From contig JAQBTG010000009.1 of NCBI GenBank assembly GCA_027624955.1, positions 1-64,000 on the forward strand: a DNA stretch of 64,000 nt, written 5' to 3'. Under the pieces are notes generated by a model. The model saw nothing but the letters and a program-made list of their open reading frames with translations. It searched no databases and had not been told where the DNA came from. This document shows positions 49,477 to 52,240 of the stretch, in pieces. Position 1 is the first letter of the stretch. Each line of letters begins with the position of its first letter. Made by a program: the position numbers and the translations under genes. Source of the DNA: Pseudomonadota bacterium (GTDB taxonomy: Bacteria; Pseudomonadota; Alphaproteobacteria; UBA828).

Positions 49477-49893
49477 TTAAAGTGAATCGAGAGCTTGTTG
49501 GAAGCGGCCGGCATGAGATTTCTCCGCTTTGGCGAGAGTCTCGAACCAGTCGGCGATTTCGTCAAAGCCTTCATCGCGCGCCGTGCGCGCCATGCCGGGA
49601 TACATATCGGTATATTCGTGCGTCTCGCCGGCGACCGAGGCGACAAGATTCTTTGCGGTATCACCGATCGGCAGTCCGGTCGCCGGATCGCCGGTTTCTA
49701 CCAGGTAGTCGAGATGGCCGTGCGCATGGCCGGTTTCGCCCTCAGCGGTGGAGCGAAATACGGTCGATACATCGTTGAAACCTTCGACATCCGCCCGGCG
49801 CGCGAAATAGAGATAGCGCCTGTTCGCCTGGCTCTCGCCCGCGAAAGCGTCCTTCAAATTTTGTTCGGTCTTTGAACCCTTCAATGCCGGCAT
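49477..49893 (-). CDS. Rubrerythrin (erythrin domain only)
   Basis: This is a diiron ferritin-like protein of 138 residues. The iron ligands are visible as Glu20 in [10 protein letters not shown], Glu53/His56 in [11 protein letters not shown], Glu90 and Glu93 in [13 protein letters not shown], and Glu124/His127 in [10 protein letters not shown]. The C-terminal rubredoxin domain of classical rubrerythrins is missing, so electrons must come from another protein; the adjacent Fe-S protein is a candidate. Likely role: removal of hydrogen peroxide, linked to iron. I start at the ATG at 49893. An Irr operator lies about 115 bases upstream. Confidence 0.92.
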
Positions 49894-50007
49894 CGGCTTC
49901 TCTCCCAATTTGTTGTGTTCACTAAGCGACGTCCGCGACGGTTATCCGCTGCGGCTACATGCTAGACAGCCTTATATGCCGGAGGCAACCGGCGTCGTCA
50001 AGCCATA

Positions 50008-50022
50008 TTAGAATTATTCTAA
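50008..50022. promoter_or_regulatory. ICE box: predicted Irr operator upstream of rubrerythrin
   Basis: TTAGAA-TTA-TTCTAA is a perfect inverted repeat matching the iron control element bound by Irr in alphaproteobacteria. It lies in the 210-base gap between rubrerythrin and irr, in an AT-rich patch otherwise unusual for this region. The remaining gap sequence shows no gene. Confidence 0.82.
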
Positions 50023-50103
50023 ATACTATTAATGATGCCGCCCTGCGGCAATATTCAAAGACACGGAGAAGAGTTGCGGCCAGCTGCTTGCCGGCCGCCG
50101 TCG

Positions 50104-50532
50104 CTACGCGGTGGGCGCGCTATTTTTGACGCGGATGATGATGTCGATGCGCGAAATTTCAGCTCCTTCGGGGAGCGCGGGCAATTCACCGATGGTGACA
50201 TTGTCGCCGGAAACGTCGCGTAATTTTCCGCTATCCTCGAAATACAGGTGGTGGTGAGCGGTGATATTGGTATCGAAATAAGACCGACCGGCATCGACGA
50301 CCAATTCCCGCAACAGTCCCGCGGCGGTGAATTGATGCAATGTGTTGTAGACGGTGGCGAGGGAGACACTGACTCCCTGGCTGAGCGATTCGGAATGGAG
50401 TTGTTCGGCGGTAACGTGCCGGTCGCCGCCCGAAAAGAGTTGGCGCGCCAGTGACTGGCGTTGGCGCGTCGGGCGCAGGCCGGCATCGCGGACCAACTCG
50501 ATGATATCGTTCGATGTTACGGCCTGGCGCAT
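50104..50532 (-). CDS. irr: Irr-type Fur family iron response regulator
   Basis: This is a 142-residue Fur superfamily regulator. The winged-helix part has GLRPTRQRQSLARQLF and VSVSLATVYNTLHQFTAAGLL. The histidine-rich HHH (93-95, in NITAHHHLYFED) is the Irr signature for heme/iron-dependent control, and the cysteine-type structural zinc site of classical Fur is absent. In alphaproteobacteria Irr acts under iron limitation, repressing iron-using or iron-storing functions and activating others. An ICE box lies just beyond its 3' end, in front of the rubrerythrin gene. Confidence 0.9.
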   Translation of the reverse strand: MRQAVTSNDIIELVRDAGLRPTRQRQSLARQLFSGGDRHVTAEQLHSESLSQGVSVSLATVYNTLHQFTAAGLLRELVVDAGRSYFDTNITAHHHLYFEDSGKLRDVSGDNVTIGELPALPEGAEISRIDIIIRVKNSAPTA

Positions 50533-50658
50533 ATCTTGTCTCGGCTTATGGAAATTTGTCGCGCGTTCCGCCGCACAACATAGAGCAGAACAACCCTAAA
50601 TCAAGAATGGATTATAATTTACTGCCTGAGAGATGTTTCGCGCTGTCTGACGCAGGTA

Positions 50659-52059
50659 TTAATCGCCCGTCACCATGCGGTTGACGAGTTCCTTCACCGA
50701 CGGAATGAAGCCATTGGAGTAAAACGGATCCGTCGCAAATTGGTAAGCCCCATGGCCGGAGAACATCAGTTGATCCTCGACATTGTCTTCGTCGTGGATG
50801 ATCACCTGTAGGGTTTTTTGAATACAGAAGCTCCGCGGGTCGGCCTTCTTGCCGGTGGTGAAGTCGGGGTTTGTTGACCAATTGCTAAACCGGCAGGATG
50901 ACAGGCACCCCATGCAGGCCGCCTGATCGTTGCGGATTTCCCGGGCCTTGTCGTCAGTTACGAATATCAGGGTCGAATCCGGCGTTTTCATGACCCGTTC
51001 GAAGCCGCTGCTCAGCCATTCCTGGGCGCGTTTAAAATCGCCTTTGGTAAGATAAAATGATCGACCGCGCGGGCCCGGGGTGAGCTTCTGGTTGTGGTCG
51101 CCGAGCGGTTCCGAGGTAAACGCCACTTGATGTTGTTCGCGCTCTTCCAGGTCGTTGATAAATTTATTTCTCACGGCGGAGGAGTAGAACCCCGTCGGGC
51201 TGAATTTGTTGAGGCCGACATCGCCTTTTTTCAAGGTCAACAAGCGCCGCTTCCAGCTTTCGGATATTGGGCTTTCTTTGGTCACCAACGGGCGGGTGCC
51301 GAATTGGAACGCGATCGGACCGATTTCCGGATTGTCGATCCAATCCTGCCATTCGCGCAGATACCAAACGCCACCGGCCATGATAATAGGTACTTTGTGC
51401 AGGCCGATGCTGTTCATGAGGGTGCGCAAGTCGCGCACCCGCGGATAGGGGTCTTCCGGTATATTGGGATCTTCACCGTTGGAGAGTCCGTTATGGCCAC
51501 CGGCCCGCCACGGGTCTTCATAGACCACACCGCCAAGCAAATCCGAGAACTTGTGATAGGCGCGCTTCCATAGCGCCCGGAACGCCCGGCCGGAGGAAAC
51601 GATCGGGTAATAATGTACCTGATAATGATTGGCGATCTCAGCGATTCGATACGGCATGCCAGCGCCGCATGTGACGCCGTGTATGAGGCCCTTGCCGCGC
51701 TCGAGGATGGCGCGCAGGATTCTTTCGCTGGCCCCCATCTCCCACAGGATGTTCATGTGCAGGCGGCCTTCGCCGCCGGACGCTTCATGCGCGATGCGGG
51801 CTTGGGCCAAGCCGCCTTCAACCGCGTATTCCACCAGCTCTTCGTGGCGTTCGCGGCGTGTCCGGCCGTGATAGATTTGCGGTATCGCCCGGCCGTCCGC
51901 GTCGTAGGAATCGGCGTTCACGCCCGAGAACGTCCCGACCGCGCCGGCCGCCGCCCACGCACCCGAAGACAGCCCATTGGTCACGCCAATGCCCTTGCCA
52001 CCCTCGATCAATGGCAACACTTCTTTGCCCGAAACAATCAGTGGATGAAGCGCCTTCAA
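50659..52059 (-). CDS. Nitronate monooxygenase-like flavin oxidoreductase with C-terminal Cys cluster
   Basis: This is a 466-residue TIM-barrel flavoprotein of the 2-nitropropane dioxygenase family: LPLIEGGKGIGVTNG at the N-terminus, HGVTCGAGMPYRIAEIA, and PIIMAGGVWYLREWQDW followed by FQFGTRPLVTKES. The C-terminal part has four cysteines, CMGCLSSC (382, 385, 389) and Cys412, that could hold a metal or Fe-S centre. I start at TTG 52059, with GAGAGG five bases upstream; the frame reaches 52218, but that part runs through the pnp terminator hairpin. Substrate unknown. It lies upstream of irr on the same strand with a 126-base gap. Confidence 0.8.
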   Translation of the reverse strand: MKALHPLIVSGKEVLPLIEGGKGIGVTNGLSSGAWAAAGAVGTFSGVNADSYDADGRAIPQIYHGRTRRERHEELVEYAVEGGLAQARIAHEASGGEGRLHMNILWEMGASERILRAILERGKGLIHGVTCGAGMPYRIAEIANHYQVHYYPIVSSGRAFRALWKRAYHKFSDLLGGVVYEDPWRAGGHNGLSNGEDPNIPEDPYPRVRDLRTLMNSIGLHKVPIIMAGGVWYLREWQDWIDNPEIGPIAFQFGTRPLVTKESPISESWKRRLLTLKKGDVGLNKFSPTGFYSSAVRNKFINDLEEREQHQVAFTSEPLGDHNQKLTPGPRGRSFYLTKGDFKRAQEWLSSGFERVMKTPDSTLIFVTDDKAREIRNDQAACMGCLSSCRFSNWSTNPDFTTGKKADPRSFCIQKTLQVIIHDEDNVEDQLMFSGHGAYQFATDPFYSNGFIPSVKELVNRMVTGD

Positions 52060-52206
52060 TTCATCCTCTCTGTTTAGCTTGGCAACCGGGCGGACAATAT
52101 TTTGCCGATATTGGTCAAATGCCGCTCGTCTGCGCTTAAAGGTTAATTTGGACCTTTCACCGCCCGCGTCAAGTCCGACTAGAGCGTAAATCAAGCACTC
52201 GTCAGG

Positions 52207-52240
52207 CCCGCAGCACAATCATAACGGATTATGCTGCGGG
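52207..52240 (-). terminator. Hairpin after pnp, likely end of the rimP-pnp operon
   Basis: CCCGCAGCA at 52207-52215 pairs perfectly with TGCTGCGGG at 52232-52240; the interior adds AATC/GATT pairing. It begins 24 bases after the pnp stop. There is no T-run after it on the minus strand, so it may be an exonuclease-blocking 3' end instead of a simple intrinsic terminator. Confidence 0.6.

Follow-up and report, generated by a model that had tools for sequence, protein, structure and literature searches.

The window, meaning the whole 64,000-nucleotide stretch of DNA that was analysed, carries on its minus strand, in this order, irr, a predicted operator, a rubrerythrin gene, a gene for a CCG-domain Fe-S oxidoreductase and one for a DUF3501 protein. 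In the direction of transcription, the features are:

50584..50600, minus strand, weak sequence resembling the Irr operator (ICE) upstream of irr; 9/14, at equal distance in 3/5 genus members
50104..50532, minus strand, irr, Fur-family regulator by NCBIfam models; HHH motif, no Cys-Pro motif
50007..50023, minus strand, predicted Irr operator (ICE), the 17-mer TTTAGAATAATTCTAAT; core 50008-50022
49996..50001, minus strand, predicted -35 box TTGACG, separated from the upstream ICE by 5 bp; TTGAC conserved across loci
49973..49978, minus strand, predicted -10 box CATATA with a 17-nt spacer, from comparison of aligned loci
49971-49976, minus strand, alternative -10 box TATAAG with a 19-nt spacer
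49477..49893, minus strand, rubrerythrin of the aerobic type, no rubredoxin domain; Pfam PF02915
47998..49422, minus strand, Fe-S oxidoreductase (CCG domain, GlpC-like; start codon uncertain), matching RFO of PMC5114695
47395..47988, minus strand, DUF3501 protein (PF12007), the third gene of the module

The ATG at 49893 is preferred to the TTG at 49908 as the rubrerythrin start because the MPxLKG motif is conserved. The resulting protein of 143 aa lacks a rubredoxin domain and is followed by RFO (CCG domain) and DUF3501 (PF12007), and the three genes are thus identical in kind to the aerobic-type rubrerythrin module, RBR-RFO-DUF3501 (PMC5114695). The window module differs in having an Irr-linked control region; the accessible parts of PMC5114695 mention neither irr nor a regulator or promoter.

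The irr product lies above both NCBIfam Irr cut-offs (IrrA, 195.8 bits against 150; Irr, 179.8 bits against 170), in agreement with the first-pass annotation, which had named Irr as the regulator. Against the PerRB model it reaches 72.7 bits, below the cut-off of 250, and it is not a PerR by this measure. The His-cluster (HxH) heme motif is present as HHH, and H93 and H95 are invariant in an alignment of 22 sequences. The degradation-linked Cys-Pro heme motif of the B. japonicum type is absent from the window Irr protein; this motif is reported to be optional, not universal, among Irr proteins (PMC7762939). A second Fur-family homologue lies on the same contig (C9:74297-74575). Upstream of irr stands a nitronate monooxygenase-like gene (window 50659-52218), which is found beside irr also in L162, L169 and L172.

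In the gap that separates the two minus-strand genes irr and rubrerythrin, the 15-mer TTAGAA-TTA-TTCTAA occupies exactly positions 50008-50022, as previously annotated. It lies 80 nt past the irr stop codon, and 115 bases separate position 50008 from the conserved rubrerythrin ATG (49893), the distance that had been given as approximate. The description of the element as fully symmetric holds for the arms TTAGAA and TTCTAA, which pair perfectly over 6+6 positions, but not for the central TTA, which is asymmetric, nor for the 7th pair, which is broken (A at 50007 and A at 50023). The ICE consensus is the palindrome TTTAGAA-N3-TTCTAAA. Because the 7th pair is broken, the 17-mer TTTAGAATAATTCTAAT matches the consensus TTTAGAANNNTTCTAAA at 13/14 positions, a figure that bears out the proposed fit to the known Irr element. 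The further claim that irr itself is not the target is likely correct here, the best site upstream of irr matching at only 9/14; autoregulation of the window irr was rejected on this ground, and the weak sequence at 50584..50600 is probably non-functional. The claim does not extend to all relatives, since 7/107 of their loci have a good ICE (at least 12/14) upstream of irr.

With up to 2 mismatches, the window is expected to contain 0.02 sites, and the sole one found is that at 50008-50022. The perfect 6-3-6 match to TTAGAANNNTTCTAA occurs as a single copy in the 3,579,816-base genome, against an expectation of about 0.025 given the base composition. The first-pass annotation had proposed a genome-wide motif scan for other sites; the scan for TTAGAANNNTTCTAA gave 1 perfect site, 1 with 1 mismatch and otherwise sites with 2 mismatches, 23 per strand against 87 for the reversed control, and therefore weak ICE-like sites are not in excess across the genome. 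Of the remaining sites, two of those with better scores lie in or beside genes without an evident iron role. A global Irr regulon in the window genome, considered as a candidate, was not visible by motif scans (at up to 3 mismatches the motif has 29 sites, its reversed control 107).

The comparison covered 110 irr loci (30 from relatives and 80 named), of which 1 ran off its contig, leaving 109. Rubrerythrin lies downstream of irr within 470 bases in 81/109 loci, and the pairing of regulator and operator that had been called rare is not so: the irr-operator-rubrerythrin arrangement is common in this group. Cultured relatives that have the locus include Parvibaculum and Sneathiella. For the gap analysis, 82/109 loci had rubrerythrin downstream and 79 of them a gap of 60-300; L111 and L128 (each 11/14) were lost to the orientation test, and the 77 gaps used were reduced to 70 by removal of near-duplicates. 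An ICE of at least 12/14 is present in 47/70 of these non-redundant gaps (dinucleotide shuffles, 0.1%), and one of at least 11/14 in 55/70 (shuffles, 0.95%). Among the 15/70 gaps below 11/14, four, from one genus, keep the symmetric variant CCTGGAATGATTCCAAT, L038 has a similar one, several others have one half-site, and L032, L131, L137 and L149 have no convincing site. In one genus (L026, L027, L028, L036, L041-L043), the operator is changed symmetrically to CCTGGAATGATTCCAAT and overlaps the irr stop codon; HQH replaces HHH in two aligned Irr proteins of this genus (L026, L028). On the other side of the comparison are 28 loci without rubrerythrin in the 470-base range, four of which end within 250 bases of irr, with a strong ICE in two of those four, and one of which (L024) has a peroxiredoxin. 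None of the 23 irr loci without rubrerythrin or another recognised peroxidase neighbour has an ICE above 9/14. The linkage between the ICE and a peroxidase neighbour has a Fisher p of ~4e-12, the genomes being related and not fully independent.

When the gaps were aligned on the ICE, the sole other strong conservation was TTGAC 3-5 bp downstream, together with a block resembling TATA some 17 nt beyond it. Counted from the first base of the ICE, TTGAC has an offset of 20-22 in 49/55 loci with an ICE of at least 11/14; its general frequency in irr-rubrerythrin gaps is 0.6% per position, a value inflated by these copies themselves. A plain sigma-70 consensus scan missed the promoter at this locus, which became visible only through the comparison. 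The comparison thus places the ICE at a predicted promoter, with TTGAC 3-5 bp away in those 49/55 loci. Rubrerythrin transcription is predicted to start near 49965, and the ICE would consequently extend from about -58 to -42, upstream of the promoter. What is new is that the ICE forms one half of a composite, joined to a near-invariant TTGAC (-35). A blind search with the pattern TTAGAANNNTTCTAAN{4,6}TTGAC matched in 41/385 alphaproteobacterial genomes, and the reversed-pattern control in 0. From these 41 genomes, 30 composite loci were inspected: irr lies upstream in 24, and in 22 rubrerythrin lies downstream as well. The composite motif alone locates such loci without annotation. In the L217 gap (about 1501-1560) two ICEs flank the -35 box, the second of them on the side of the gene.

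The ICE is assigned to the rubrerythrin promoter because it co-occurs with rubrerythrin across genomes and directly adjoins a -35 box that is itself conserved. The palindrome is probably an Irr operator acting on that promoter, whichever its sign, and the earlier choice of rubrerythrin as target agrees with the presence of an ICE in 55/70 linked gaps, against 0/23 loci lacking a recognised peroxidase neighbour, and with the adjoining -35 box. The 15/70 gaps below 11/14, some of them devoid of an ICE, speak against this reading. From the observed sequence, gene order, conserved geometry and peroxidase-gene linkage, we infer Irr binding, start site, signal and sign as follows. The operator would form part of the promoter that drives the operon of rubrerythrin, Fe-S oxidoreductase and DUF3501. 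The product of the adjacent irr gene would bind, as a dimer, to the ICE, whose edge stands 3-5 bp ahead of the -35 box, and most likely the active, heme-free form would hinder RNA polymerase at the -35 region and keep the operon low. Heme or peroxide would inactivate Irr, whereupon the operon would be expressed and H2O2 removed. Heme is the reported Irr signal (PMC7762939).

The claim of a clear direction of control is upheld for the target only; it gave no sign, and the -35-adjacent position does not settle one. Repression appears the better supported sign, for three reasons: the -35 box comes close to consensus and a dimer at the ICE would crowd it; the second ICE of L217 stands past the -35 box, ahead of the gene; and R. 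sphaeroides irr mutants show peroxide resistance together with over-expression of mbfA and, to a modest extent, of ccpA. In that organism the irr mutant is reported to be peroxide resistant with mbfA up ~8-fold, and ccpA, whose ICE lies ~40 nt before the start, is up ~1.8-fold under iron limitation (PMC3413700). Activation is the somewhat less probable sign. In its specific form, in which active Irr at about -50 would recruit RNA polymerase to the same operator and rubrerythrin would rise under iron limitation, it is a possible reading that deserves weight without being preferred. Irr is described as binding the ICE when heme-free and as activating or repressing according to ICE location (PMC7762939), and at hmuT/hmuR of B. 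japonicum control through an ICE upstream of the promoter is positive (PMC3836376). For R. sphaeroides, Irr is inferred by the authors to act as an activator at most genes (PMC3413700). Rubrerythrin mRNA of Pelagibacter, compared by expression alone, is up 1.57-fold under iron limitation (PMC2864753), which by analogy would be opposite to iron-dependent repression by Irr. Together with the nearly fixed spacing of 3-5 bp between ICE and -35 box across loci, the hmuT/hmuR and Pelagibacter analogies would count against repression. Against activation, a -35 box so near consensus should not need help, and R. sphaeroides ccpA, whose geometry is similar, goes up and not down when Irr is missing (PMC3413700). 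Moreover, no member of the hemP/HmuP family (a reported Irr coactivator) matched in the window genome, which is not decisive.

The remaining explanations dispense with Irr. The palindrome might be bound by another Fur-family protein, either the C9:74297-74575 homologue or a PerR-like one; such a gene exists on the contig and there is a likeness between the ICE and the PerR box, given as TTATAATNATTATAA in PMC545781, but the 13/14 ICE match, the way site occurrence tracks irr adjacency and the presence of the site beside irr even where KatG or a peroxiredoxin is the target make this improbable. Still less probable is that the dyad acts as an RNA hairpin, at the end of the irr transcript or in the rubrerythrin leader. 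Its position 80 nt past the irr stop and the symmetry kept by variants such as TGGAA...TTCCA would suit a hairpin; however, the stem is short, A+T-rich and not followed by a T run, a terminator scan reported none at the site, and the exact letters and the distance to TTGAC are conserved. Although one A+T-rich palindrome in one genome could arise by chance and lack function, this can hardly be credited for an element expected ~0.025 times per genome and conserved across genera with fixed geometry, and the gap and composite searches contradict it.

The reading as an Irr operator at the rubrerythrin promoter can be set beside known systems. The Irr/ICE systems of Bradyrhizobium and Rhodobacter (mbfA, bfr, hmuT/hmuR, ccpA) share with it the regulator family, the 17-bp palindrome and rubrerythrin-like or peroxidase targets. 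Unlike in those systems, the window ICE is local to irr and built into a TTGAC promoter, and good sites elsewhere in the genome are almost absent. The predicted operator fits the ICE family, with the fixed promoter fusion, irr adjacency and interchange of peroxidase genes as its variant features. PerR senses peroxide via its bound metal. The window regulator is Irr, not PerR, by model; its mode of action may therefore be that of a local PerR although the protein itself is none. In deltaproteobacteria, perR-rbr and perR-katG adjacency and mainly local regulation have been described (PMC545781); the likeness lies in a Fur-superfamily gene beside a peroxide-scavenging gene with mostly local regulation, and the difference in a regulator that is Irr by a curated model and has an ICE, not those PerR boxes. 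In addition, the window target is a soluble, aerobic-type rubrerythrin module, whereas MbfA is membrane-bound and has its start inside the ICE (PMC3413700).

In this setting Irr has the look of a regulator of peroxide defence that acts locally, comparable to PerR beside rubrerythrin elsewhere. Irr sites have reportedly been predicted in alphaproteobacteria (Rodionov 2006). The literature searched, which did not cover Rodionov 2006 and Rudolph 2006, where irr-rbr sites may stand, contained no report of the irr-ICE-rubrerythrin arrangement, and its novelty is provisional. The aerobic-type rubrerythrin module gains a predicted regulator and promoter, and the locus is a compact and conserved one in which to study whether the original role of Irr was in the response to peroxide or to iron. 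Since regulator, site and one operon lie within ~3 kb, sign, signal and geometry are testable in a single reporter construct. Tentatively, and with rather less confidence than the operator assignment itself, it may be proposed that in a large alphaproteobacterial group Irr is foremost a switch for local defence against peroxide and corresponds to PerR, with an ICE-TTGAC cassette beside irr joined to the rubrerythrin module, KatG or peroxiredoxin, and that in the window genus Irr also controls RpoH2. If the local-switch reading were true, the global iron role of rhizobial Irr would be a later expansion.

Other genes preceded by the element are as follows. In L220 and L222 (about 1501), irr and ICE-TTGAC are followed by KatG catalase-peroxidase in place of rubrerythrin, and in L024 (ICE 13/14) by a peroxiredoxin. 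In four reduced genomes of 0.8-1.1 Mb (L204-L207), the composite (about 1501) precedes sufB, an assignment for which the translations were read for L204 and L206 and L206 was scanned. L215 and L227 are composite loci outside the irr-linked and sufB groups among the 30 inspected. In G002, G003 and G008 (L163 and L165, about 1501; L177) an ICE or near-ICE, matching at 12-13/14, precedes a peroxiredoxin gene; as a target in the window genome it was rejected, no orthologue being found but only a 55% relative without the site. In L163 and L165 the ICE-preceded peroxiredoxin adjoins rpsD.

The second-best genome site, with 1 mismatch (G000:C1:83269-83285; L002 1500-1516, L047), lies ~69 bp upstream of rpoH2, which encodes sigma-32 (NF005693, 385 bits; cut-off 315). 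The left half-site is degenerate and resembles half a PerR box, and therefore Irr binding is less sure at rpoH2. An ICE-like site of 11-12/14 is found in a similar place at 8/8 rpoH2 orthologues of at least 65% identity in the relatives searched, the window genome included, these genomes being related and not independent; it usually stands directly after a TATAGT-like -10. An exact search for TTNNNAATNATTCTAAY in 6 genomes of the genus gave five matches: one is the window site, and the other four lie upstream of rpoH2.
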